23,943 nucleotides of DNA from a virus: IMG/VR virus record IMGVR_UViG_3300034082_000696, positions 1-23,943 of that record, one strand, 5' to 3'. The notes under the pieces are model-generated. The model was not told the origin of the DNA. It made no database searches and saw nothing but the letters and a program-made list of their open reading frames with translations. Both the position numbers and the translations under genes were made by a program. Of the stretch, positions 2,955 to 23,943 are shown piece after piece (the stretch's first letter is position 1; each line of letters starts with the position of its first letter).

Positions 2955-3980
2955 TTGACAAATCAATCTATCAACCGCATTGGATTTGCTTGCAAATTTA
3001 GTAAACTAAACACTAAGGGCGAAGTAGTTAGCATACCCGAAATGAATACTGGTGGTACTACTCTCGCTTGGGCAGCTAGGCAAAAGCGTAGTATCGCAGA
3101 AGAAAAGGTGATTGAAGTTGCAAAACGCAACATTTTACATACCCACAATCTAGTTAAAAAAGTAGCAACACTACAACCCGAACTACGTATGGTTCGGCTG
3201 ACTAGTGATATGCTGAGTTTTTATACACATGATGACTGGAAAGATTTTTGGCACGACAGTGATATTCAAAACAAACTAGAACACTGGATGGCACCTATTG
3301 GTGAAACTGCACGAGCTAATGATGTTCGTCTAAGTTTTCACCCAGGTCAATTTACAGTTTTAGCGAGTGATCGTGAAGAAGTAGTAAATAAGAGTATAGA
3401 AGAATTTGAATATCATTGCGATATGGTTCGTTGGATGGGCTATGGCAAATCATTTCAAGACTTCAAAGTTAATGTTCACATTTCTGGTAGAAAAGGTCCT
3501 CAGGGTATCAGAGATGTTTATAATCGGTTATCCCCTGAGGCAAGAAACACACTTACACTAGAGAATGAGGAATACACACATGGACTACTTGACTGCTTAT
3601 CATTATCTGACCTCGTACCTACGGTCCTCGATATCCATCATAATTGGATTCGTGAAGGAGAATACATTCAGCCTACTGATGCGCTTGTACAACGGGTTAT
3701 TGATAGTTGGCGTGGTATTCGCCCTACTATGCATTACAGTGTTAGCCGCGAAGATATACTCGGAGAACATTCCGCAACCCGATTACCCGATCATGGTGCG
3801 TTGATTGCAGCAGGCTATAGTAAACAGAAATTGCGGGCACATAGTGACCAATACTGGAATGATGCAGTGAACGATTGGGCATTGACATTTCTTGAGAACT
3901 TTGATATCATGTGTGAATCAAAATGGAAAAATCTTGCTAGCTTTAAATTATTTGAAAGATATAAACATGGGACTATTTGA
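2955..3980 (+). CDS. uvsE: UV-damage endonuclease (UvdE/UvsE family)
   Basis: The product has 341 residues with full UVDE-family features. It opens with RIGFACKF. Metal-site motifs follow: FHPGQFTVL (His129), VNVHISG (His175), TLENEE (Glu203), VLDIHHNW (Asp226, His228, His229) and MHYS (His260). The family is a TIM barrel with a multi-metal centre that nicks DNA 5' of pyrimidine dimers and some other lesions, starting ATP-independent repair. Length is normal. The start is uncertain: TTG at 2955 is the only plausible initiator before the conserved RIGF, there is no clear Shine-Dalgarno, and an in-frame stop lies at 2943-2945. It has its own sigma70-type promoter. Sunlight exposure of virion or host DNA is the likely reason for carriage. 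T4 uses the unrelated DenV for a similar job. Confidence 0.9.
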   Translation: MTNQSINRIGFACKFSKLNTKGEVVSIPEMNTGGTTLAWAARQKRSIAEEKVIEVAKRNILHTHNLVKKVATLQPELRMVRLTSDMLSFYTHDDWKDFWHDSDIQNKLEHWMAPIGETARANDVRLSFHPGQFTVLASDREEVVNKSIEEFEYHCDMVRWMGYGKSFQDFKVNVHISGRKGPQGIRDVYNRLSPEARNTLTLENEEYTHGLLDCLSLSDLVPTVLDIHHNWIREGEYIQPTDALVQRVIDSWRGIRPTMHYSVSREDILGEHSATRLPDHGALIAAGYSKQKLRAHSDQYWNDAVNDWALTFLENFDIMCESKWKNLASFKLFERYKHGTI

Positions 3981-4415: not shown

Positions 4416-4444
4416 TTGACATCAAATAGATTTGAGTATATAAT
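4416..4444 (+). promoter_or_regulatory. Class A early-type promoter, copy 1
   Basis: Perfect TTGACA (4416-4421), 17-base spacer, perfect TATAAT (4439-4444). This is the most divergent class A copy: the spacer reads TCAAATAGATTTGAGTA, and the leader keeps only AGAGTCTTA before differing. It drives the first MNERI-family gene. Confidence 0.85.
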
Positions 4445-4475
4445 AGAGTCTTACTACCTTGTTTGGAAAAAAGTT

Positions 4476-4658
4476 ATGAACGAACGAATTAAAGAACTTG
4501 CCGAACAGGCTGGCTGGGATAGTCATCACTCAAAATTTGATACTAGGATTGAAAAGTTCGCCGAGTTGATTTTAGAAGAAATTATGCAGGAATTGATTAT
4601 CAACGGACATGATGATGCCTTTATTTTCTTGAACAAACATTTTGGAGTTGAAGAATGA
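4476..4658 (+). CDS. MNERI/HFGVEE-family small protein, copy 1
   Basis: The product has 60 residues. ATG 4476 is chosen because MNERIKELAEQAG matches the start of its paralogues; the longer frame back to 4416 begins inside the promoter. The family architecture is an N-terminal MNERI..LA.QAG helix, a central KFAELI helix (here IEKFAELILEEIM), a variable stretch and a terminal KHFGVEE. It is small, acidic and helical, with no signal peptide or membrane segment. The function is unknown; similar proteins occur in aquatic phages. It overlaps the next gene by ATGA, and the last codons (GGAGTTGAAGAATGA) supply that gene's ribosome-binding site. Confidence 0.8.
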   Translation: MNERIKELAEQAGWDSHHSKFDTRIEKFAELILEEIMQELIINGHDDAFIFLNKHFGVEE

Positions 4659-4843: not shown

Positions 4844-5020
4844 ATGAAAACACTATTAGAAAAGATTCGCAACTTCTTCAATACTACTTGTCGGGATCAA
4901 GAGATTGAAGAACGATTCTATAAGCGTCTGCAGGATATGAAAGATCACCCAGAAAAGTATCAACATATTCTCAACAGAAACAGTGGAAGTTCAAAGATTC
5001 CGCCCGTTTCTCTATTTTAA
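4844..5020 (+). CDS. Small charged phage protein, unknown
   Basis: The ATG at 4844 opens a 58-residue frame ending TAA 5018-5020: MKTLLEKIRNFFNTT...QEIEERFYKRLQDMKDHPEKYQHI...PPVSLF. It fills an otherwise empty gap three bases after the previous stop, on the coding strand. The N-terminal 13 residues form a plausible amphipathic helix, followed by a charged helical stretch. The ribosome-binding site is weak (GAGG lies about 15 bases upstream), so coupling to the upstream gene is likely. Function is unknown. Confidence 0.6.
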   Translation: MKTLLEKIRNFFNTTCRDQEIEERFYKRLQDMKDHPEKYQHILNRNSGSSKIPPVSLF

Positions 5021-5030
5021 GGAGTTAAGA

Positions 5031-5255
5031 ATGAATGAACGAATCATAGAACTTGCAATTGAAGCGGGAATTTACACTAACAAATCCGAGATGCTTCATA
5101 AGTTCGCCGAGTTGATTGTCAGGGAGTGTATGAATCTAGCAATAACGGAAGAAGAAAAATATAGTTTTTCAAATAGCACGCCAGCCAAATATTTTACAGC
5201 GGCAATAAGTGACTTTCAAGGAGTGTTGGCAAAACATTTCGGAGTTGAAGAATGA
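5031..5255 (+). CDS. MNERI/HFGVEE-family small protein, copy 2
   Basis: The product has 74 residues from ATG 5031, with AAGGAG (5019-5024) spaced ideally upstream. MNERIIELAIEAG, then LHKFAELIVRECM, then a variable middle (about 40-67), then AKHFGVEE. The family signature is complete. It overlaps the next family member by ATGA, giving two adjacent paralogues. Function is unknown; the conserved KFAELIVREC helix suggests a shared binding partner. Confidence 0.8.
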   Translation: MNERIIELAIEAGIYTNKSEMLHKFAELIVRECMNLAITEEEKYSFSNSTPAKYFTAAISDFQGVLAKHFGVEE

Positions 5256-5437
5256 ACGAACGAATTGAAAAACTCAAAGATCAATGCTGGGTAGAGAGGC
5301 GTTGGAATAATGATATGTGGATCGAAAAGCATATTGATCTGGAAAAGTTCGCCGAGTTGATTGTCAGGGAATGTTGCGATCAGGTAAGAATGGTTGATGC
5401 TATGGAAATTAAAAAACATTTCGGAGTTGAACTATGA
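5252..5437 (+). CDS. MNERI/HFGVEE-family small protein, copy 3
   Basis: The product has 61 residues. MNERIEKLKDQCW, LEKFAELIVRECCDQV and terminal KKHFGVEL (the last residue is changed from Glu to Leu). It starts in an ATGA overlap with copy 2 and ends in an ATGA overlap with the next gene. The DNA around KFAELIVRE is almost identical to copy 2, pointing to recent duplication or gene conversion. Confidence 0.78.
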   Translation: MNERIEKLKDQCWVERRWNNDMWIEKHIDLEKFAELIVRECCDQVRMVDAMEIKKHFGVEL

Positions 5438-5682
5438 CTCCATACGGATATATTAGTAAGAGATATAGATTCATCTTTGGCCCAGGCAACTTTGAAATGC
5501 CTCGTATTGATACAAGGGAAGCAGACAAACTCTTTCCATTGTTTTCGTGTTATCTTGAGTCACAATACCCAGGACAAGAACCATGGGGCGGTGTTGTTCC
5601 CGACATAGGATTAGTTTACTACTATACTGAAAACATTGGCGAGTTGGGCATAGAGCCTTTATATCTAGGAGTTGAAGAATGA
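5434..5682 (+). CDS. Small phage protein with acquired GVEE tail
   Basis: The product has 82 residues: MTPYGYISKRYRFIFGPGNFEMPRIDTREADKLFPLF...GLVYYYTENIGELGIEPLYLGVEE. The body has neither MNERI nor KFAELI and looks unrelated to the HFGVEE family, yet it ends in LGVEE encoded by the same GGAGTTGAAGAATGA string. In many aquatic phage proteins of this flavour the body looks aromatic and strand-rich; no function is known to me. Starts and ends are both ATGA overlaps. Confidence 0.68.
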   Translation: MTPYGYISKRYRFIFGPGNFEMPRIDTREADKLFPLFSCYLESQYPGQEPWGGVVPDIGLVYYYTENIGELGIEPLYLGVEE

Positions 5683-7907: not shown

Positions 7908-8321
7908 ATGGCATATTTTAATCAAGAACGCAAAGCAAAAATTGCCCCTAAAATCAAGGCTATTCTTGCTAAGTATAAGGTTAAGGGTTCGCTTGCTGTT
8001 CGCAATCATATGACCCTGTGCTTGAATCTTAAATCTGGTTCTATTGACTTTATTGCAAATTCTAATAAAGTTTGCGGGAATAGTCACTACCAAGTGGCTA
8101 GAGGCTTTAAGCCTAGTACTAGTGGTTACGATCAAGTTAATCCTTATCACTTTAAAGATCATTACGACGGTAAGGCCCTTGCTTTTATGCAGGAAGTTTT
8201 TGCTGCTATGAATGAAGGTAATCACGACCATAGCGACATTCAATCCGACTACTTCAACGTGGGGTGGTATGTTGATGTGAACATTGGTAAGTGGGACAAG
8301 CAGTATATTTTGGAAGCATAA
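7908..8321 (+). CDS. Conserved hypothetical phage protein (MAYFNQERKAKIAP family)
   Basis: The product has 137 residues from ATG 7908 with CAGGAG upstream. The pattern KAKIAPKIKAILAKYKVKGSLAVRNHMTLCLNLKSG..., then YHFKDHYDGKALAFMQEVFAAM, then NHDHSDIQSDYFNVGWYVDVNIG is one I recognise from many phages and some bacteria, always without a function. His, Asp and Tyr residues cluster in the NHDHSDIQSDYF block. Full length for the family. No enzymatic motif is clear. Confidence 0.82.
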   Translation: MAYFNQERKAKIAPKIKAILAKYKVKGSLAVRNHMTLCLNLKSGSIDFIANSNKVCGNSHYQVARGFKPSTSGYDQVNPYHFKDHYDGKALAFMQEVFAAMNEGNHDHSDIQSDYFNVGWYVDVNIGKWDKQYILEA

Positions 8322-8323
8322 TT

Positions 8324-8542
8324 ATGAACGAACGAATCTTAGAACTCGCTAAACAGGCTGGCCTAAAGTTTCCATCGGAAACTGCAATGAGCCCTGTGGA
8401 ACTGGAATTTGCCAAGTTGATTATTGATCATGCTACAGAATGTGTGCGTGATGTTCTGCGTGATGAAAATTCAGACTTGAGTTATGATGCTGCATCACAG
8501 GTACAAAATCGTATCAAAGAATTTTTCGGTGTTGAAGAATGA
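8324..8542 (+). CDS. MNERI/HFGVEE-family small protein, copy 4
   Basis: The product has 72 residues from ATG 8324, two bases after the previous stop and chosen for MNERILELAKQAG. The core is ELEFAKLIIDHATECV and the end is EFFGVEE. The family signature is present but divergent. Here the tail DNA reads GGTGTTGAAGAATGA, so the internal GGAG ribosome-binding site is lost although the GVEE peptide and the ATGA overlap are kept. Confidence 0.78.
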   Translation: MNERILELAKQAGLKFPSETAMSPVELEFAKLIIDHATECVRDVLRDENSDLSYDAASQVQNRIKEFFGVEE

Positions 8543-8898
8543 CCAACAAAATCACAACAGAAATGCTGGATCGCACAATGGCATGGTGCCAGCAAAATGC
8601 ATTTTGGGGCAATCCTCGTGCCATACAGCGTATGCAGGATTTCTACATTGAAAAGACTCGCACCAGTGTAAACGAGGATTGGCCAGGCACTGATGGCATG
8701 GAAGCGGCCCCTTTGGGTCATTTACGGTATCGTATTTACTACAGTAAAGATTTACTTACTAGTAGAGTGTTTATATTCCGCCCTCACTGCACTTGGGACG
8801 AACAGAAAATCATGTTGGACATGGGTTTTGTAGTTGCCCAAGAAGGTGATGCGGACAACATTCCCGATCAACCCGTAGAAGAAGGAGTTGAAGAATGA
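8539..8898 (+). CDS. Phage protein of unknown function with GVEE tail
   Basis: The product has 119 residues in an ATGA overlap on both sides. The body (TTEMLDRTMAWCQQNAFWGNPRAIQRMQDFYIEKTRTSVNEDWPG, then RYRIYYSKDLLTSRVFIFRPHCTWDEQKIMLDMGF) has no MNERI or KFAELI element, so it is unrelated to its neighbours. It nevertheless ends VEEGVEE, with GGAGTTGAAGAATGA at DNA level. Function is unknown. Confidence 0.7.
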   Translation: MTNKITTEMLDRTMAWCQQNAFWGNPRAIQRMQDFYIEKTRTSVNEDWPGTDGMEAAPLGHLRYRIYYSKDLLTSRVFIFRPHCTWDEQKIMLDMGFVVAQEGDADNIPDQPVEEGVEE

Positions 8899-9167
8899 AC
8901 GATAAAATCAACCAACTGTTGGTGCAGTCTGGTTTGCTGATAAATGTCAGCGAACACCGTGTGAACGAACTTGATCCTAATATCAAAAAATTCGCCGAGT
9001 TGATTGTGCAGGAATGTACCGCGGCGTTATTTGATGAATCGGAAAGATTGTCTGGATTGTATTCGGACGAAAACAATTGGTACTCGGCTGAGGAATATGA
9101 AATTCGTTCAAATCAATGTATTGATGACATAGCCTTGATTGAAAAACATTTCGGAGTTGAAGAATGA
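8895..9167 (+). CDS. MNERI/HFGVEE-family small protein, copy 5
   Basis: The product has 90 residues, the longest family member. MNDKINQLLVQSG replaces MNERI..LA.QAG. IKKFAELIVQECTAAL and EKHFGVEE are intact. The extra length lies in the acidic middle (residues about 48-80). ATGA overlaps at both ends. Confidence 0.8.
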   Translation: MNDKINQLLVQSGLLINVSEHRVNELDPNIKKFAELIVQECTAALFDESERLSGLYSDENNWYSAEEYEIRSNQCIDDIALIEKHFGVEE

Positions 9168-15331: not shown

Positions 15332-16174
15332 TTACATGTTGGCTATTGATTTTATTACCCAAAAATCTCTGCTCATACTAGTGTTTTGTATTACTTGGAA
15401 TGGCATATAGAAGTAGCCGTTGTCACCCCAACGTGTTCCCCAACTGTTTCTTACTATAAAAGTATTATTAGTTTTGTTATAACCAACAATCAACACAGCA
15501 TGTCCGCCCAATAATCGTTCTTTATTAACATTGGGATATGGCATAATACCAGTTTTTGCTACTGCAGGACTATCAAAGCTAGAATATACATTAAACCCAA
15601 TCGTTACTGGATATCCACTAGTGATAGAATCCATTACTTGATTAAAGTCTAGGGCTCTTTGATATGATGTAACTTTTCTTTTTAATGCATCAACTATTGC
15701 AGTTTTATGTGGCTGCATTTTAAATTTGCTTATGTTATATGGCCATAAGTTTTCAGTTGGTGCTCCATAGGTATAACATGCTTTGATACCGTCACGTATA
15801 TATGCACCACTATCATAATTTACCGTGCCTATAAACTTACGCTCATAGTAGTATATAAAAAGACGGCTTATGTCAAGTGTCCTACTTTGGCGTTTGTGCA
15901 ATAATTCAATCGCACCTGCAATAGCATTGCCAGTACAACTACCTAGCTTACCCTGATCTTCAATTGATGAACAATATTGTCTTAAATCTACAATGTTAGG
16001 TTGTGTGGCACCAGTAAGACGATAAGGATGATCTCTTGTGTCTATTTTATCTTTAACCCAATGATATTTAGGTATATCAAAAGGTGGTTTCACCTTTCGC
16101 ATTGGTGGAAAAGGTCTACGATGCAGTCCCGGATCTAGTTCTATATCAATTATTGTGTTTGAATCTTGTTTCAT
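15332..16174 (-). CDS. Papain-like cysteine protease (peptidase family C1A)
   Basis: The product has 280 residues from ATG 16174. The catalytic apparatus is complete: oxyanion Gln74 and nucleophile Cys80 in [12 protein letters not shown], His225 in [13 protein letters not shown] and Asn243 in [18 protein letters not shown]. The Pro/Arg-rich first 60 residues are too short for a normal papain propeptide and there is no signal peptide, so it may be made active or be attached to the virion. It sits in the tail-fibre/propeller operon, directly after the Asp-box propeller gene (five-base gap). Possible roles are processing of fibre proteins or digestion of host surface protein. Catalysis is inferred from motif conservation. 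Confidence 0.9.
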
Positions 16175-16179
16175 ATATC

Positions 16180-17280
16180 TTATGATCCAACTGAGTATAA
16201 CCAGTTAGGACCAGTACCATCGACCCCAACTGCTACAAACTCACTTGTTACGGTGCTATATACAACCGACCTCATATATCCTGTAGCAGTACTACCATTA
16301 AACAATGAAGGAGTACCCCAATTACTACCATTTGCTGATGTCATATACAAAGGTTGTCCTATTCCACCTACTTGAAGTTGGCCAACTCCTACAAATTCAC
16401 CAGCTGGATTTGCTGTCAGTGAAAATATTTGCATGAGAGTAGTAGAACCAGAGATAAGTGTTTGTGTAGTCCAAGTTGAGCCATTGGTTGATGTAGAATA
16501 ACCAAGACCGCCGGACATATTACCAACGGTTACAAACAAATTATGGTAACTTGACCAAGTAACTGCTTTTAGTTGAAATGTTGAACTGAACATTTGTTGA
16601 GTAGACCAACTGCTGCCAGTTGCTGAGAAAGAATACCAGGGAGTGGTATCAAACCCGTCATAGCCGGTTACAACAAAATTTCCAGATGAATTAACTGCAA
16701 TAGATGCAGTGTTAAAGAATATTCCACTTGCAGCACCGGGTAAAGCTGTTGGTGTAGTCCAAGTTGAGCCGTCTGCTGAGGTAGAATATGCAGCCCCACC
16801 ACCGGAGGACAGTAGCATAATTGCCGCAAACACACCAGCACTATTAACAGTGATAGTATGTACATTACCAACGGCTATTGCTCCGCTTATCACAGTGGGA
16901 GTAGTCCAAGTGACTCCATCACTTGATGTGGAACATATAGCATTTGAACTAGAATTAACACCTATTGCTAAAAAGTAATTATGATAACTTGACCATGTAA
17001 TCTGAGTTAAGAATGTGCTACCGGTTATCTCTTGAGTTGGACCAGTCCAAGTAGTACCGTTCGTTGACACAGCACTACCAAAGTTACCATTATATGACCC
17101 AACCACGGTGATTAACCCTGTATTATCAATAGCACTAGCATTAGGTTGCAATAGAGATACAAATGCACCTGAATTCATTATAGCCGGAGTAGTAAAATTG
17201 ATTGTTGGAGGTGCGGGCGGGGGAGTACCTATATTAATATTTCCACCTATGTCTATCCCGCCTCCAATTGTAATTGCCAT
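16180..17280 (-). CDS. Tail-fibre-like Asp-box (BNR-type) beta-propeller protein
   Basis: The product has 366 residues from ATG 17280, with AGGA upstream on the minus strand. An N-terminal glycine/isoleucine-rich peptide (MAITIGGGIDIGGNINIG) is followed by PPPAPP and then six repeats with Asp-box-like motifs: STNGTTW, SSDGVTW, SADGSTW, SATGSSW, STNGSTW and SANGSNW. Between them come WSSYHN and strand-rich segments, consistent with a six-bladed propeller. Asp-boxes mark sialidase and other propeller folds structurally, without implying enzyme activity; no sialidase arginine triad was identified. The short N-terminus plus poly-Pro linker matches the kelch genes next door, so it is probably part of the same adsorption apparatus. 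Confidence 0.78.
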   Translation of the reverse strand: MAITIGGGIDIGGNINIGTPPPAPPTINFTTPAIMNSGAFVSLLQPNASAIDNTGLITVVGSYNGNFGSAVSTNGTTWTGPTQEITGSTFLTQITWSSYHNYFLAIGVNSSSNAICSTSSDGVTWTTPTVISGAIAVGNVHTITVNSAGVFAAIMLLSSGGGAAYSTSADGSTWTTPTALPGAASGIFFNTASIAVNSSGNFVVTGYDGFDTTPWYSFSATGSSWSTQQMFSSTFQLKAVTWSSYHNLFVTVGNMSGGLGYSTSTNGSTWTTQTLISGSTTLMQIFSLTANPAGEFVGVGQLQVGGIGQPLYMTSANGSNWGTPSLFNGSTATGYMRSVVYSTVTSEFVAVGVDGTGPNWLYSVGS

Positions 17281-17356: not shown

Positions 17357-18313
17357 TTATTGTGTACCGCCGGCTGCAGCTAAACTATATCTAGCCGCAC
17401 TAAGTGGACCACGCACTGACGCGGTTGCGGTATCGGTTGCATATGTTATTCGGTCTACTGTTGAGGTTGCTGATGCCCCGCCTCCAAACCAGCCATCAGT
17501 AAAATTACCTGCAGCGGCTAAACGCTGTCTAGCCAAACTAAGTGGACCGCGTACTGTAGCAGTGGCAGTATCGGTTGCATATGTGATTCGGTTTACCGTT
17601 GAACGCACGGTAGTAGGAGTATAGCCGCCGCCAAACCAGCCATCCGTATCATTACCTGCTGCGGCTAAACGATAGGTAACCTGATTAAGTGGTCCACGTA
17701 CACTTGCCGTTGCTGTATCGGTTGCATATGTGATTCGGTCTACTGTTGAAACGCCTGGCGTCTCACCGCCGCCAAACCAGCCATCAGTTGTATTACCTGC
17801 TGCGGCTAAACCATATTTAGTCCCACTAAGTGGACCACGCACACTAGCGGTTGCAGTATCGGTTGCATATGTAATTCGGTCTACTGTTGATTTACTAAGA
17901 GGTGCTGTGCTGGTGTTATACCCGCCGCCAAACCAGCCATAAGTTGTATTACCTGCAGCCGCTAACAAATGTCTAGCCTGACTAAGCGGACCACGTACAC
18001 TTGCTGTTGCAGTATCAGTTGCATATGTTATTCGGTTTACTGTTGAAAAAAAACTGGGATATGTTCCTGACCCGCCTCCAAACCAGCCATCAGTAAAATT
18101 ACTGGCTGCGGCTAAATTATTTATAGCCAAACTAAGTGGACCGCGTACTGTAGCAGTGGCAGTATCGGTTGCAAATGTGATTCGGTCTACTGTTGAACGT
18201 ATTCCGGCGGGCGCCGCGGGGGTATATCCGGCGCCAAACCAACCCGCTGTGTTTTCTGGTGGTGGTGGTGTGTAAATAAATCCACTAGTTAATGTCATTC
18301 CGGTTAATTCCAT
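17357..18313 (-). CDS. Kelch-like WFGGG six-repeat propeller (tail-fibre type), paralogue D
   Basis: The product has 318 residues from ATG 18313 with GGAG upstream. A short N-terminus (MELTGMTLTSGFIY) and a PPPPENT linker lead into six repeats of about 45-52 residues. The consensus reads WFGGG-variable-STVDRITYATDTATASVRGPLS.AR..LAAAGNTTDG. This follows the kelch blade pattern (GG..., then aromatic/ATDT, then GPL...R..LAAA), giving a likely six-bladed propeller. The only length-variable part of each repeat is the loop after WFGGG. No enzyme motif is seen. Virion receptor binding is the likely role, inferred from family and context. Repeats are nearly identical at DNA level to those of the three paralogues. 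Confidence 0.8.
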   Translation of the reverse strand: MELTGMTLTSGFIYTPPPPENTAGWFGAGYTPAAPAGIRSTVDRITFATDTATATVRGPLSLAINNLAAASNFTDGWFGGGSGTYPSFFSTVNRITYATDTATASVRGPLSQARHLLAAAGNTTYGWFGGGYNTSTAPLSKSTVDRITYATDTATASVRGPLSGTKYGLAAAGNTTDGWFGGGETPGVSTVDRITYATDTATASVRGPLNQVTYRLAAAGNDTDGWFGGGYTPTTVRSTVNRITYATDTATATVRGPLSLARQRLAAAGNFTDGWFGGGASATSTVDRITYATDTATASVRGPLSAARYSLAAAGGTQ

Positions 18314-18349
18314 TTTAATTACTCCAAGGTAAAGGTAACATAATCATTT

Positions 18350-19285
18350 TTATTGTATACCGCCGGCTGCGGCTAAAGCCTTTCTAGCCAAACTAAGTGG
18401 ACCACGCACTGAAGCAGTGGCAGTATCAGTTGCATATGTAATTCGGTCTACGGTTGAAACGGGGCCCGGGCCTCCGCCGCCAAACCAGCCATCAGTTGTA
18501 TTACCTGCTGCGGCTAATCTATCTCTAGCTGAACTAAGTGGTCCACGCACACTTGCGGTTGCAGTATCAGTTGCATATGTGATTCGGTCTACTGTTGACA
18601 CCGAGCCACCAGGAATTTCACCACCGCCAAACCAACCATCAGTTGTATCACCTGCTGCGGCTAAATAACGTCTAACCGCACTAAGTGGACCACGTACACT
18701 AGCGGTATCAGTATCGGTTGCATATGTAATTCGCTGTACGGTTGAACGGATAACTCCTATATTGTCCTGGCCGCCACCAAACCATCCATCAGTAGTATTA
18801 CCTGCTGCGCTCATACCATTTCTAGCCAAACTAAGTGGACCACGTACACTAGCGGTTGCGGTATCGGTTGCATATGTGATTCGGTCAACTGTTGAACGGA
18901 TAGGATCGTACCCGCCCCCAAACCAGCCATCAGTAGAATTACCCGCAGCACCCATATTATATCTAGCTAAACTAAGTGGACCACGCACACTTGCGGTATC
19001 AGTATCGGTTGCATATGTGATTCGGTCTACGGTTGACCTAGTACCTGGGCTACCACCGCCAAACCAGCCATAATCAAAATTACTGGCTGCGGCTAAAGAA
19101 TGTCTACCTACACTAAGTGGACCACGTGTAGTAGCAGTTGCAGTATCGGTTGCATATGTTATTCGGTCTACTGTTGAAGCGACTGCTGGCGTGTTGCCGC
19201 CGCCAAACCACGCCGCAGTATTTTCTGGTGGAGGTGGGGCTATATAAGTAAATCCACCAGTTAATGACAATCCAGCTAATTCCAT
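18350..19285 (-). CDS. Kelch-like WFGGG six-repeat propeller (tail-fibre type), paralogue C
   Basis: The product has 311 residues from ATG 19285, with AAAGGAA upstream; the ATG at 19303 lacks such a site. The N-terminus MELAGLSLTGGFTYIAPPPPENT is clearly homologous to paralogue D's. Six repeats follow, with loop insertions NTPAVA, SPGTR, YDPIR, QDNIGVIR, EIPGGSV and GPGPV after each WFGGG (the last has an extra G). The core strands are almost invariant. The stop TAA follows GGIQ. Transcribed with paralogue D 37 bases downstream. Adhesin function is inferred. Confidence 0.8.
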   Translation of the reverse strand: MELAGLSLTGGFTYIAPPPPENTAAWFGGGNTPAVASTVDRITYATDTATATTRGPLSVGRHSLAAASNFDYGWFGGGSPGTRSTVDRITYATDTDTASVRGPLSLARYNMGAAGNSTDGWFGGGYDPIRSTVDRITYATDTATASVRGPLSLARNGMSAAGNTTDGWFGGGQDNIGVIRSTVQRITYATDTDTASVRGPLSAVRRYLAAAGDTTDGWFGGGEIPGGSVSTVDRITYATDTATASVRGPLSSARDRLAAAGNTTDGWFGGGGPGPVSTVDRITYATDTATASVRGPLSLARKALAAAGGIQ

Positions 19286-19401
19286 TTTTATTTCCTTTAA
19301 CATTGAATTTACCGCCGTTATTAAACGTTTGATAAAAGCAAAACTAGCAGTATTGGCTTGTGTACTAGTTTAATAATCAATAGCAGTAAAAAAATTTAAT
19401 A

Positions 19402-19812
19402 TTATTCAGGAATTTCCATTGGAGGATTAAGTTGTGCAAAACTAGCCAACATAGAATCAACATCAGTATTATCAAATGGTAATGCTATTACCTGTGCTGA
19501 AGTCATATTTAATTTAGTACACATTTCGCTATTAGCAGAAACACTTGCCCGTGCGGTTGTATAATGACCACTAATTTCTGACGACCAGTCATTATATGTC
19601 ATATCACTAAGTCCCGAACTTTCTGCAATCAATGTACTATCTGGCACTACGCTTAGACAATAATCTATTCCATTGGTGTCAACAAACCAAAATTTAACAT
19701 CTAGCCCGTCAAGTCTTGGATGCGTTTTCCCATTAGGGCCCATATTCTTATCAGTAAAATACTCTATTAAATTTTCGTAATCTACGTAATAATGTTTTAT
19801 GTACTTAGCCAT
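19402..19812 (-). CDS. Conserved phage protein, probably tail-associated
   Basis: The product has 136 residues from ATG 19812, with AAAGGAA upstream and a 16-base overlap with the oxygenase gene. MAKYIKHYYVDYENLIEYFTDKNMGPNGKTHPRLDGLDVKFWFVDTNGIDYCLSVVPDSTLI is a pattern I recall from marine myovirus hypothetical proteins found next to tail-fibre genes. Soluble alpha/beta; no catalytic motif. The role is unknown; a chaperone or fibre-assembly partner would fit the position before the kelch genes. A 116-base gap to the next gene holds no further ORF. Confidence 0.65.
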   Translation of the reverse strand: MAKYIKHYYVDYENLIEYFTDKNMGPNGKTHPRLDGLDVKFWFVDTNGIDYCLSVVPDSTLIAESSGLSDMTYNDWSSEISGHYTTARASVSANSEMCTKLNMTSAQVIALPFDNTDVDSMLASFAQLNPPMEIPE

Positions 19813-20489
19813 GTTTTTTCCTTTTTAACAGTTATATTGTATTTATCATTAATTACTGTTTCTTCTTCTTGTATGCTAGGAAATCCGATAATTGTCATCC
19901 AATTCACGATACTGTATCTATTACCATGTGTAATTGGTTCAACCCCATGCAAATACTCATGCGTAGATGGGAAACATACTAACATACCCGGCTCTGGACG
20001 AATTCTAATTTTTAATTCAGGGAATATAAAATCACCACCTTCAAAATCATTATTCAAAAACAACACGGTACTTAAATCTCTATCAGTACTTTTACGCCAA
20101 ATTAGCGGATGATTGCCCGGTGGTTTCCACAATGATTCTCCATCGCAGTGTGCTTTATAATGACCGCCTATTCCATAATGTAATAATTGCGGAATTTCAG
20201 AATCTTTAATTTCAACTTCATAAAATGGATTAATCACATTACTTACAATATTACGATACAAGTCAACTATTTCATCACTAATTTTTTCTAAATCAATCAT
20301 CTGAGTATCTCTGACTTTTTTATCTACTGTAAATTTAGTTGATTTAGTTGAATTACTTTTTGTTGGGTCAAAAACAGATAAATCCTTAAGTCCATCTTGT
20401 TTTTTAGCATAATTAATAATAAAATCTACTCCGGCTGAAGAAATAACATTGGGAGCAATCAATATTTTAGACAACAGATTATTTTTCAT
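19797..20489 (-). CDS. 2-oxoglutarate/Fe(II)-dependent oxygenase (prolyl 4-hydroxylase type)
   Basis: The product has 230 residues from ATG 20489, in an ATGA overlap with the glycosyltransferase-fusion gene and with GGA upstream. The double-stranded beta-helix metal site is complete: His114 and Asp116 in GGHYKAHCDGE, His181 in YLHGVEPI, and Arg191 in HGNRYSIVNW for 2-oxoglutarate. TVLFLNNDFEGGDFIFPEL is the usual core strand pattern. The reaction is 2OG-dependent hydroxylation of a peptide, sugar or other substrate. Such oxygenases are common auxiliary genes in marine T4-like phages, often near tail genes. The substrate is unknown; hydroxylation of a virion or host surface component is a contextual inference. 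Confidence 0.88.
   Translation of the reverse strand: MKNNLLSKILIAPNVISSAGVDFIINYAKKQDGLKDLSVFDPTKSNSTKSTKFTVDKKVRDTQMIDLEKISDEIVDLYRNIVSNVINPFYEVEIKDSEIPQLLHYGIGGHYKAHCDGESLWKPPGNHPLIWRKSTDRDLSTVLFLNNDFEGGDFIFPELKIRIRPEPGMLVCFPSTHEYLHGVEPITHGNRYSIVNWMTIIGFPSIQEEETVINDKYNITVKKEKTWLST
19840..19847 (-). promoter_or_regulatory. Possible T4-like late promoter element (GATAAATA)
   Basis: The minus strand reads GATAAATA 27 bases before ATG 19812, followed at the right distance by AAAGGAA. It lies inside the end of the oxygenase gene. This is the best-spaced of the late-promoter candidates. Confidence 0.38.
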
Positions 20490-22315
20490 TTATTATTCCA
20501 TTTGTCATTAAACAGGCTTTTTGGTGAATCAGTATGTTGTTTTTCTGAAGTTGATTCTTTAGTATGTATTCTATCCAATCGTTTTTCAATACCGATACGG
20601 TTGTTTACTGGTTCGTTGGTTAATAATTGAAGATCATTGCTTGTAACTTCTTCAATACCAGAAAGAACTTTTTTCTGTAATTCTACCAAAAATTCAAGTC
20701 CCAATTCACCGCCTGCTAATGCCTTACCCAAGTCAGGAAAAGGATTTTTAACACGATTAACATCATCGGGTAATAACGTAGGGGCACTTGCTCTACGCAT
20801 ACTGTAAACATTACTAGTACCTATACCGGTATTACGACTAATAATATCATCCATTGCTTGATTAGCCAAACGGCGTTCCCAATATATATGATCTTGTTCT
20901 TCAAATTGTTCACGAGTAATTGGCCCACCGTTTTGTTCAACTAATTTATTTAAAATCTTATCAAAGGTTTCAATTTGTTGAATTCTATCACGAATTTCTA
21001 ATTCAGAACTTTTTAAAAAGTTTTGTAAATTTAAAGCATCCAAATCATTCCAGCACAATTTAGTGCCACCGTCTTTTGTTGGCCATTGAATGGGTTCTTC
21101 TTTATTTTTATCTGCCCATTTATAATCAAACTCACGTTGATGTTCCTTCATTTCAGTTATTTTAGAAAATAACCCTTCTGCCATAATTCTACGATTTTTT
21201 AACATAGCATTAAACGCACTAGCAATTGTATAATTATCTAATGTTATGAATTTTTCAATTTGAAAATTACTTCGTCCTTGTGCGTGTTCCTTATCCTCAT
21301 TTTCCCAACGAAAAATTTCATTGAATACTTGAGATAGTATTTTTTCATCTTTTGCGATATTATTACCTGTTTGTGATATGATATTTTTTGTATCCAGTGT
21401 TTTTTGAAGTTTCATGCGGTTTCCATTTGTTAATAACTTATTTACTAGTGTGTGCCATTCTTTAGAAATATTATACCAAGAATAATATTCACACGCCCAC
21501 CTAGACTGTTCTATAGTATGTTTATATTTATTTTCAGATAGAGCATTGCAAATATTTTCTGCAAAATCACTTAAAAATTGTTTATTAGGTATCCACCCAG
21601 TTGAGTGATAAATTGCATCTAATGGTACAATTGTACCAAATTTATTTGCTGTTTCTGGTAATGCGCCTATATCACTTATTATTGGATAGCACCCAGAACG
21701 CAATGCTTCTATAAGCGTTACGCAACTGGTTTCTTCCCATGTATTTGGATAAACCAGTAAAGATGCTTGCTTAAATTCTTCTGCAAGTTGTGTATGACTA
21801 ATAGGTTCACTGTAGTATGTATTTGGTGTATTTTGTAGTTCTTTGTATATTTCTTTGAATTCTTGTGTATCTTGATCTCCATACAGTTGCATACCAGAAA
21901 ATACTTTTAGGATAGCATCTGGGTGTTGTTTTAGTACTTGTTTGAAAATATAAGGTAGATATTTCAATCCACGAAACGGAGTACTTGCGTATATGAGAGT
22001 TTTGTTTGTTTTTTCTTTATAGTTAAAATAGTCTGCGCCGCCATTGCGTATGACAGATATTTTATGTTTTGGTATATTGAGATATTTAATAAATTGTGAT
22101 TGTTGCCAGTTACTAACACATACAATGTGTGTTATTTTATCCCAGTTTACATTTAAGAAGATAGGTTGATCATGAGCGTAGTGTGCCCACAGTATTTTTA
22201 TTGGTTTAGTGCTATTAATTAGCTTATGTGGGTCAAAATCTACTGAAATATTTGATGGAAAATTAATATGTTGTTGTAAAAAATGAAATCCTGATTGAGT
22301 GGCACCTGAAATCAT
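20486..22315 (-). CDS. GT4-like glycosyltransferase fused to a phage structural-type domain
   Basis: The product has 609 residues. Residues about 35-296 form a shortened GT-B/GT4 glycosyltransferase: ILWAHYAHDQPIF, IVCVSNWQQSQFIKYLNI, ISVIRNGG, IYASTPFRGLKYLP, and the donor motif WEETSCVTLIEALRSGCYPI with Glu195 and Glu203 (E-x7-E). From about 301 it becomes a different protein. QGRSNFQIEKFITLDNYTIASAFNAMLKNRRIMAEGLF, then EIRDRIQQIETFDKIL, then YWERRLANQAMDDIISRNTGI and SMRRASAPTLLPDDVNRVKNPFPDL match a conserved cyanophage-type hypothetical protein that I recall near tail genes. Met301 (ATG 21415, with GGA upstream) could start that domain alone. The 609-residue start has no clear ribosome-binding site and follows the kelch stop by two bases. 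Confidence 0.72.
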   Translation of the reverse strand: MISGATQSGFHFLQQHINFPSNISVDFDPHKLINSTKPIKILWAHYAHDQPIFLNVNWDKITHIVCVSNWQQSQFIKYLNIPKHKISVIRNGGADYFNYKEKTNKTLIYASTPFRGLKYLPYIFKQVLKQHPDAILKVFSGMQLYGDQDTQEFKEIYKELQNTPNTYYSEPISHTQLAEEFKQASLLVYPNTWEETSCVTLIEALRSGCYPIISDIGALPETANKFGTIVPLDAIYHSTGWIPNKQFLSDFAENICNALSENKYKHTIEQSRWACEYYSWYNISKEWHTLVNKLLTNGNRMKLQKTLDTKNIISQTGNNIAKDEKILSQVFNEIFRWENEDKEHAQGRSNFQIEKFITLDNYTIASAFNAMLKNRRIMAEGLFSKITEMKEHQREFDYKWADKNKEEPIQWPTKDGGTKLCWNDLDALNLQNFLKSSELEIRDRIQQIETFDKILNKLVEQNGGPITREQFEEQDHIYWERRLANQAMDDIISRNTGIGTSNVYSMRRASAPTLLPDDVNRVKNPFPDLGKALAGGELGLEFLVELQKKVLSGIEEVTSNDLQLLTNEPVNNRIGIEKRLDRIHTKESTSEKQHTDSPKSLFNDKWNNK

Positions 22316-22317
22316 TT

Positions 22318-23289
22318 TTATTGTACACCGCCGGCTGCGGCTAAATTAAATGTGGCCACACTAAGTGGGCCGCGTACACTAGCAGTTGCAGTATCGGTTG
22401 CAAATGTGATTCGGTCTACGGTTGAAACGGCGTTCTGGGCACCACCGCCAAACCAGGCATCAGTAGTATTGCTTGCTGCGCCCATACCATATCTACCTGC
22501 ACTAAGTGGGCCGCGTACACTAGCTGTTGCAGTATCAGTTGCATATGTGATTCGGTCAACGGTTGACATGGGCCCTGGACCCGGAAGACCACCGCCAAAC
22601 CAGCCATCCGTATCATTACCTGCAGCGGCTAAACGCTGTCTAGCCACACTAAGTGGACCGCGTACACTAGCGGTTGCAGTATCGGTTGCATATGTGATTC
22701 GGTCTACTCTTGAAAAGTTTGGCGGTCCATAGCCGCCCCCAAACCAGCCATCAGTAGTATTACCTGCCGCGGATAAAACATCTCTTGTCAAACTAAGCGG
22801 ACCACGTACACTTGCAGTTGCGGTATCGGTTGCATATGTGATTCGGTCTACGGTTGATCTTCTGGTGTAGTCAGGCGCGCCACCGTTACCGCCACCAAAC
22901 CAGCCATCAGTAGTATTACCTGCCGCGGCTAATTGATTTCTAGCCGCACTAAGTGAGCCACGTACCGACGCGGTTGCAGTATCGGTTGCATATGTGATTC
23001 GGTCTACAATTGAATAGAGACTTCCAGTGTTGTTGCTGAACCCACCGCCAAACCATCCATAAGTAAAATTACCTACTGCGGCTAATAAAAATCTAGCCTG
23101 ACTAAGTGGACCACGTGTAGTAGCAGTGGCAGTATCGGTTGCATATGTTATTCGGTCTACCCTTGACGTTGAGTTTGCCTCCGCATTGCCACCGCCAAAC
23201 CATCCTGCTGTGTTTTGCGGAGGTGGAGGTGGAGGTGTGAAAGTAAATCCACCTGAAAAAGAAATTCCACTTGTAAATGTTATTGTCAT
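22318..23289 (-). CDS. Kelch-like WFGGG six-repeat propeller (tail-fibre type), paralogue B
   Basis: The product has 323 residues from ATG 23289 (MTITFTSGISFSGGFTFTPPPPPPQNTAG). The GTG at 23313 would overlap the upstream gene; neither start has a strong ribosome-binding site. The N-terminal strand-like peptide and poly-Pro linker precede six repeats. The loops after WFGGG are long and diverse: NAEANSTSR, FSNNTGSLYSI, NGGAPDYTRRST, YGPPNFSR, LPGPGPMST and AQNAVST. Core positions DRITYATDTATASVRGPLS and LAAAGNTTDG are almost fixed. Ends GGVQ-TAA, two bases before the glycosyltransferase-fusion gene. Receptor binding is inferred. Confidence 0.8.
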   Translation of the reverse strand: MTITFTSGISFSGGFTFTPPPPPPQNTAGWFGGGNAEANSTSRVDRITYATDTATATTRGPLSQARFLLAAVGNFTYGWFGGGFSNNTGSLYSIVDRITYATDTATASVRGSLSAARNQLAAAGNTTDGWFGGGNGGAPDYTRRSTVDRITYATDTATASVRGPLSLTRDVLSAAGNTTDGWFGGGYGPPNFSRVDRITYATDTATASVRGPLSVARQRLAAAGNDTDGWFGGGLPGPGPMSTVDRITYATDTATASVRGPLSAGRYGMGAASNTTDAWFGGGAQNAVSTVDRITFATDTATASVRGPLSVATFNLAAAGGVQ

Positions 23290-23302
23290 AGTATAATCAT
23301 TT

Positions 23303-23943
23303 TTATTGTACACCGCCGGCTGCGGCTAACTGATATCTAGACGAACTAAGTGGACCACGAACACTAGCAGTTGCAGTATCGGTTGCATATGTGATTCGGT
23401 CTACGGTTGAACGGGTACTAGCATTGTATCCACCGCCAAACCAGGCATCAGTACTATTACCTGCAGCGGCTAAACTATATCTAGCCAAACTAAGTGGACC
23501 ACGTACTGAGGAGGTGGCAGTATCGGTTGCATATGTAATTCGGGCTACTAATGATGTGGGTCCCGGAAATCCACCGGCAAACCATCCATCAGTGGTATTA
23601 CCTGCTGCTGCTAACCTGGTTATAGCCAAACTAAGTGGACCGCGTACACTTGCTGTTGCAGTATCGGTTGCATATGTGATTCGGTCTACGGTTGAAGTAA
23701 GACTGCTACCGCCACCAAACCATCCGTCAGTAGTATTACCTGCTGCGGCTAAATAACTTCTAGCCAAACTAAGTGGACCACGTACACTTGCAGTTGCAGT
23801 ATCGGTTGCATATGTGATTCGGTCAACTGTTGAAAGGAAACCGTTATTACCACCGCCGCCAAACCAGCCATCAGTAGTATTGCCTGCAGCGGCTAAAGCG
23901 TATCTAGCTGAACTAAGAGGACCACGCACACTTGCAGTTGCAG
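23303..23943 (-). CDS. Kelch-like WFGGG propeller (tail-fibre type), paralogue A, 5' truncated by window
   Basis: The frame is open to the window edge (residues ...TASVRGPLSSARYALAAAG), so the N-terminus and the first repeats are missing. Four complete repeats and part of a fifth are present; loops after WFGGG/WFAGG are GNNGFLST, SSLTST, FPGPTSLV and YNASTRST. One repeat reads WFAGG and VARITY in place of WFGGG and VDRITY, the strongest core departure seen in any copy. It ends GGVQ-TAA 13 bases before paralogue B. The internal GTG at 23929 is a valine codon of the repeat, not a start. Confidence 0.78.
   Translation of the reverse strand, partial: ATASVRGPLSSARYALAAAGNTTDGWFGGGGNNGFLSTVDRITYATDTATASVRGPLSLARSYLAAAGNTTDGWFGGGSSLTSTVDRITYATDTATASVRGPLSLAITRLAAAGNTTDGWFAGGFPGPTSLVARITYATDTATSSVRGPLSLARYSLAAAGNSTDAWFGGGYNASTRSTVDRITYATDTATASVRGPLSSSRYQLAAAGGVQ

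Follow-up and report, generated by a model that had tools for sequence, protein, structure and literature searches.

What use does a virus have for several kelch-like genes whose repeats are well conserved in their core and highly variable in their loops, and how does such variation arise? The question is raised by an IMG/VR virus record of 23,943 bases (the whole stretch of DNA analysed computationally here, called the window, from which all coordinates are taken), in which four kelch-like ORFs with a strong tandem-repeat signal, all on the minus strand, together hold 22 full repeat units and one partial unit. Each of the complete genes (A, B, and C) contains six units, as does every complete short relative that was fetched, and the unit is laid out as WFGGG-(variable)-STVDRITYATDTATASVRGPLS-xARxx-LAAAGNTTDG. 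A first-pass annotation of the same DNA had described four such paralogues with at least 22 full repeats, which the count bears out; the interval it gave, 17357–23943, is not kelch throughout, however, since 19402–22315 is occupied by a small gene, a 2OG-Fe(II) oxygenase, and a fused glycosyltransferase gene. The features are, in order of position (relatives carry L numbers):

16180..17280 (-), 366-aa protein whose leader, MAITIGGGIDIGGNINIGTPPPAPP, is related but whose repeat head differs; weak Pfam propeller match below the cut-off
17357..18313 (-), kelch-like head gene A, 318 aa, six units; phrog_19111, E=6e-42
18251..18313 (-), leader of gene A, MELTGMTLTSGFIYTPPPPEN; 84% DNA identity over 57 bp with the leader before a Gly-rich head in L116
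18350..19285 (-), kelch-like head gene B, six units; ORF extends to 19303, likely start 19285
19220..19285 (-), leader of gene B, MELAGLSLTGGFTYIAPPPPEN; from leader alignment and leader profile
19402..19812 (-), 136-aa gene; the exchange in L116 starts shortly downstream of it
19797..20489 (-), 2OG-Fe(II) oxygenase; conserved synteny, relatives also having it next to kelch-like genes
20486..22315 (-), fusion of a group 1 glycosyltransferase with a C-terminal domain; in Synechococcus phage S-SKS1 this domain is a separate protein encoded next to kelch-like genes
22318..23289 (-), kelch-like head gene C, six units; ORF to 23313, likely start 23289; modelled with AlphaFold2
23212..23289 (-), leader of gene C, MTITFTSGISFSGGFTFTPPPPPPQN; leader profile iE 1.6e-11, the gene C leader itself being part of the model
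23303..23943 (-), kelch-like head gene D, incomplete at the contig end; four full units and one partial

For genes B and C, an internal ATG (19285 and 23289, respectively) is the probable start, because the leader of B aligns with the L116 leader from the former position and the leader of C fits the family leader from the latter. Over the repeat region, A to D are matched by phrog_19111, a family to which no function is assigned (E values of 6e-42, 1e-39, 3e-39, and 6e-28, respectively), and none of the four matches the Kelch families of Pfam at E 0.1; they are therefore referred to as having a kelch-like fold, not as members of these families. Pfam matches of the repeats to SNARE and DUF3489 lay below the cut-off and were judged to be due to chance. 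The repeat head of the 366-aa protein is perhaps another propeller; no solved structure matching this protein was found.

Two Variable Sites in Each Blade

About half of the columns of the core STVDRITYATDTATASVRGPLS are free of any amino-acid change, in agreement with its first description as almost fixed, and the stretch following WFGGG does vary in both length and sequence (4–10 residues up to STV, no two of the 22 alike). LAAAGNTTDG, for which near fixation had likewise been claimed, is conserved to a lesser degree, residue 34 being represented by six different amino acids. What did not hold is the confinement of variation to one loop per blade; every blade varies at two places, namely the B-C loop that follows WFGGG and, as a second site at codons 23–27 (GPLS-xARxx-LAAAG), the D-A turn (xAR-xx). 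As a whole, the observation was thus confirmed in part.

Residues 26 and 27 reach 3.0 bits each in the 22 units of the window, and 3.5 and 3.7 bits, respectively, when 50 non-redundant genes (264 units) are considered; 259 of the 264 B-C loops in this larger set are distinct. Within the window, pN/pS is 2.05 at residues 26–27 (bootstrap 1.08–5.9) versus 0.21 in the core, and at the D-A site the first and second codon positions vary while the third positions are fixed. In other, more diverged genomes, pN/pS at residues 26–27 is nearer 1, which is partly the result of saturation.

Predicted Fold of the Heads

Modelling of gene C together with 45 relatives by AlphaFold2 (pLDDT 89.0, pTM 0.88) gave blades of mostly four strands, for which Foldseek returned Keap1, KLHL12, and the designed SAKe6 propellers (TM 0.8–0.9), and VIA-align superimposed the model on Keap1 (1x2j) with a Z of 39.4 and an rmsd of 1.8 Å over 283 residues. 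The predicted structure is a six-bladed propeller of the kelch type; the kelch propeller proposed from the sequence at the outset is the one on which the model, Foldseek, and VIA-align all agree. At the level of sequence, the family profile also finds SAKe6FR, a designed kelch protein (E 2e-7), and this match sets the register: the B-C loop corresponds to the first variable stretch and the D-A turn to the second. Because of the order of strands in an up-and-down meander, these two elements lie on the same face, and both hypervariable segments are accordingly predicted to share one face, as had been suggested for the loops, from the strand order of the model and the kelch register rather than from coordinates. 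In Keap1, the binding surface is formed by the loops of one face. The phage heads thus have the same predicted six-bladed kelch fold as the kelch domains of Keap1/KLHL and SAKe6 (Z about 39) at a sequence identity of approximately 16–20%, which is below detection by Pfam; unlike these, they combine natural hypervariability with a phage leader.

A Leader Shared with Other Heads

The leader comprises approximately 20–25 residues, is rich in G, S, and T, and ends in a proline-rich linker (e.g., MELTGMTLTSGFIYTPPPPEN); inspection by eye revealed no apparent hydrophobic signal peptide. A profile made from the leaders of kelch-like proteins alone also finds proteins with other bodies, namely a KAIFGYG repeat family (iE down to 3.5e-10) as well as Gly-rich, fibronectin, and ConA/LamG proteins (iE up to 4e-2); as the best shuffled N-terminus used as control scored 0.11, the weakest of these matches are suggestive only. 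Pfam confirmed Gly_rich_2, fn3, and Laminin_G_3 domains in leader-bearing proteins, and a wider leader model added more lectin-like candidates; the leader of the 366-aa protein is part of this wider model and does not constitute an independent match.

Like the kelch-like family, the KAIFGYG (FGYG) family has six units and is variable at the same two places. The structural model of this family reached a pLDDT of 40, and therefore no fold is claimed for it. Its weak PDB profile matches, to lectins of Photorhabdus (E 9e-5), may be due to composition. Neither FGYG nor Gly-rich heads had a match in the phage collection, and a scan of genome contigs (bacterial genomes) with gene B found no relative.

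Genomic Context

A T4-type major capsid gene, Gp23, is present in five of ten related records. The clusters of three relatives lie near genes with a bearing on virion structure: a tail-fibre-like protein, T4 gp15, and a head-tail adaptor in L016, a protein matching virion-structural and tail-spike families in L115, and a collagen/S74 fibre in L126; the window contains no recognised structural gene, so that the tail-fibre context comes from these relatives. Synechococcus phage S-SKS1 and Marine virus AG-345-L05 (Kyanoviridae) are among the distant relatives with kelch-like proteins, which share the repeat type and the neighbours of the family (the C-terminal domain of the glycosyltransferase, 2OG oxygenase, sulfotransferase). 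Their proteins have a different N-terminus and are mostly longer chains of many units (465–968 aa), whereas each head of the window consists of six units behind a short leader.

For pelagi- and cyanomyophages, PMC7029224 describes a hypervariable host recognition cluster in T4-like phages, located between VrlC and gp14 and containing tail fibres, glycosyltransferases, and putative receptor-binding domains. The relatives considered here appear, like those phages, to be T4-like, and gp15 and adaptor genes lie beside the cluster of L016; the context seen in the relatives appears to fit this description. A shared leader combined with the exchange of heads is a feature of the proteins treated here that was not seen in the passages of PMC7029224 consulted, and a term search of the paper returned no propeller or glycine-rich head.

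It is rather probable that the kelch-like genes encode interchangeable, virion-displayed host-binding heads of a freshwater T4-like phage, situated in its host-recognition cluster. The alternative that survives best, although we consider it unlikely, is that the kelch proteins act on the host during infection as effectors or enzymes, whether intracellular or secreted, and are exchanged since hosts differ. Kelch proteins are often intracellular adaptors, and glycosyltransferases, a 2OG oxygenase, and a papain-like protease are encoded in the same cluster, which would suit such a role; however, the other heads found behind the same leader (Gly-rich, ConA/LamG-like, fibronectin) are typical of adhesins, some clusters adjoin tail-fibre genes, and the leader has no apparent hydrophobic signal peptide.

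Exchange of Heads and Rewriting of Loops

Exchange was examined by comparing alleles of relatives, only a handful of which are similar enough to be decisive. In L116, the closest relative, the flanks on either side are approximately 96.5% identical to those of the window, but the place of genes B and A is taken by genes for two Gly-rich (Gly_rich_2) proteins with the same leader, separated by a DUF7936 gene; similarity to the window runs through the leader and then ends. L005 and L016 are 98.5% identical over 4.1 kb of flank, 90% in the leader, and 68% in the head. L009 and L015 have almost the same head but different leaders and surroundings, the similar stretch being bounded by the leader/head joint and the stop codon. 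L050 shares approximately 96% identity with the window across the next three genes; the loops of its last three units differ, and other genes occupy the place of B and A.

A second mode of change is apparent from L005 and L006, where the 4.1 kb flank is 98.5% and the head gene 93.4% identical, the changes lying in patches inside the loops. Amino-acid changes affect 15 of 35 codons in B-C loops versus 8 of 191 in the core and strands (P=8e-9); 16 of the 35 B-C loop codons differ, in addition to indels, while synonymous change elsewhere in the same gene and the 1.5% divergence of the flank are far lower. This comparison bears on the idea that the loops vary only for lack of constraint in genes unrelated to host binding. 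Propeller loops are generally tolerant of change, and the pN/pS of about 1 at the D-A site at larger distances would agree with it, but since loss of constraint cannot push change above the neutral rate, it is insufficient on its own for L005/L006; in addition, whole heads are exchanged within very close relatives, and the separate FGYG family varies at the same two sites. We therefore judge this explanation to be quite improbable.

Differences between near-identical contigs might also be produced by chimeric assembly of repetitive genes, a known hazard with metagenomes, and many contigs indeed start or end inside kelch-like genes. Against this, which we hold to be very improbable, several alleles recur identically in separately assembled datasets, the heads of L116 are of a type other than kelch repeats, with unique flanks at their joins, and reading frames stay open.

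As for the source of the new loops, the first-pass annotation had envisaged frequent recombination between repeated blocks, yielding a pool of binding faces without a reverse transcriptase. This interpretation is supported in part. Loop sets do differ among close relatives, as expected from it, and no reverse transcriptase was found in 12 related records; the recombination it invoked fared less well. Not one B-C loop of at least 12 bases is common to paralogues of one genome, and only two short B-C loops are common to units of otherwise different genes; with almost no shared loops, shuffling of blades between positions or paralogues was rejected. Similarity between units at the same position reaches significance for the strand-A stretch alone, and even there it is lost once the first and last units are excluded. 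Moreover, several alleles that are identical or nearly so keep identical loop sets across separately assembled samples; loops are therefore not rewritten constantly, contrary to the frequent exchange proposed. No donors of the L005/L006 loop patches were found among the fetched loci.

Diversification by a diversity-generating retroelement (DGR) elsewhere in the genome is hardly credible: phage receptor-binding proteins are classic DGR targets and the pattern of codon positions at the D-A site of the window is suggestive, but RVT_1 had no match in 12 related records (which may be fragments, and include records of 348.7 kb and 143.7 kb), the window (24 kb) contains no template-like copy outside the kelch-like genes, some of the patches in the loops alter loop length, and the adjacent AGA codon has mostly stayed the same. 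The DGR targets Mtd and the tentaclins (PMC10743442) are likewise phage binding proteins with concentrated variability; the heads described here differ from them in that no reverse transcriptase or template repeat was found and in that their loops change in length.

A Proposed Set of Interchangeable Binding Heads

Understood as host-binding heads, the proteins would each consist of a short N-terminal leader and one compact head. The leader would attach the head to the virion, probably to a fibre or the baseplate. The four heads of the window would be six-bladed kelch-type propellers, in each of which twelve hypervariable segments may form the likely binding surface, the variable face binding a molecule on the host surface. 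Diversity arises by the two routes seen in the comparisons above, no retroelement having been detected for either: single loops are rewritten in patches of about 10–25 bases, and a whole head is exchanged at the leader/head joint, even for one of unrelated fold. Selection on host binding presumably drives the change of heads and loops alike.

A known parallel in design is gp38, the tail-fibre adhesin of T-even phages, the gene for which is placed after the tail-fibre gene. Both systems have a small adhesin gene with a conserved attachment part and a variable recognition part, exchanged by recombination, and Gly-rich heads occur in the relatives studied here as in gp38; here, though, a short leader serves for attachment and the majority of heads are kelch-type propellers. 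No gp38 family was among the matches listed for the kelch or Gly-rich heads, and the Gly-rich heads match PF21722. A limited search of the open-licence literature found no description of kelch heads as variable receptor-binding proteins of phages. Modular phage adhesins are known; a propeller with two hypervariable segments per blade, a leader independent of the fold behind it, and loop change with no detected retroelement are unusual.

More tentatively, one short docking leader serving a range of unrelated binding folds (Gly-rich, lectin-like, and fibronectin heads as well as two kinds of repeat head with six units), heads moving between phages as exact modules, and retroelement-free rewriting of loops above the neutral rate could together provide a phage with several independent, evolvable binding faces, which we put forward as possible rather than probable. 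If true, freshwater T4-like phages would possess a natural counterpart of an engineered binding scaffold, in which a rigid propeller presents twelve variable segments on a single face and is combined with a common leader that accepts other folds. The loop sets would amount to a natural library on a stable scaffold, and host specificity might be read from metagenomes by searching for the leader and then cataloguing heads and loops; the system would further offer a testable case of fast evolution of a binding face without a reverse transcriptase.

Genes Outside and Beside the Head Cluster

Enzyme genes here include:

2955-3980, UvdE-type UV endonuclease gene
15332-16174, papain-family cysteine protease gene, adjoining the head cluster

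The protease has numerous relatives among viral contigs. Elsewhere, small ORFs with the C-terminal end GVEE (4416-4658, 4983-5255, 5434-5682, 8291-8542, 8539-8898, and 8895-9167), some with an MNERI-like internal start, look from their sequences like one family of small paralogues; two ORFs within 253-2875 carry repeated GVAEG motifs, and one of these matches phrog_727 and further phrogs without assigned function.

Possible Exchange Remnant, Fusion, and Related Heads

The stretch ATGTTACCTTTACCyTGGAGTAATTAAA is common to the gap before the kelch-like gene A (18314-18349) and to the DUF7936 gene of the closest related locus, L116, where it lies at the 3′ end; in the gap it resembles the remnant of an exchange. 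At 20486-22315, a C-terminal domain is joined to a glycosyltransferase; in Synechococcus phage S-SKS1 the same domain is a stand-alone gene (L061:820-1656), which likewise adjoins kelch-like genes.

The short G/S/T-rich N-terminal leader of the kelch-like heads is also found in a second six-unit repeat family, KAIFGYG (e.g., L019:6809-7747, and other genes), whose hypervariable positions fall at the same two places of the unit and which has weak profile matches to Photorhabdus PLL/PHL lectins. A series of leader-bearing proteins is encoded at L119:3103-9794; three are Gly-rich, one resembles the 366-aa protein of the window, and one is lectin-like.

Codon Bias at the Variable Sites

Among the variable codons of the kelch-like genes (17357-23943), 34 of the 44 at the D-A turn end in T, as compared to 22.5 ± 2.9 expected from codon usage, and C-ending codons are nearly absent there; in the B-C loops, which follow WFGGG, 30% end in C. 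The D-A and B-C sites may have separate histories.
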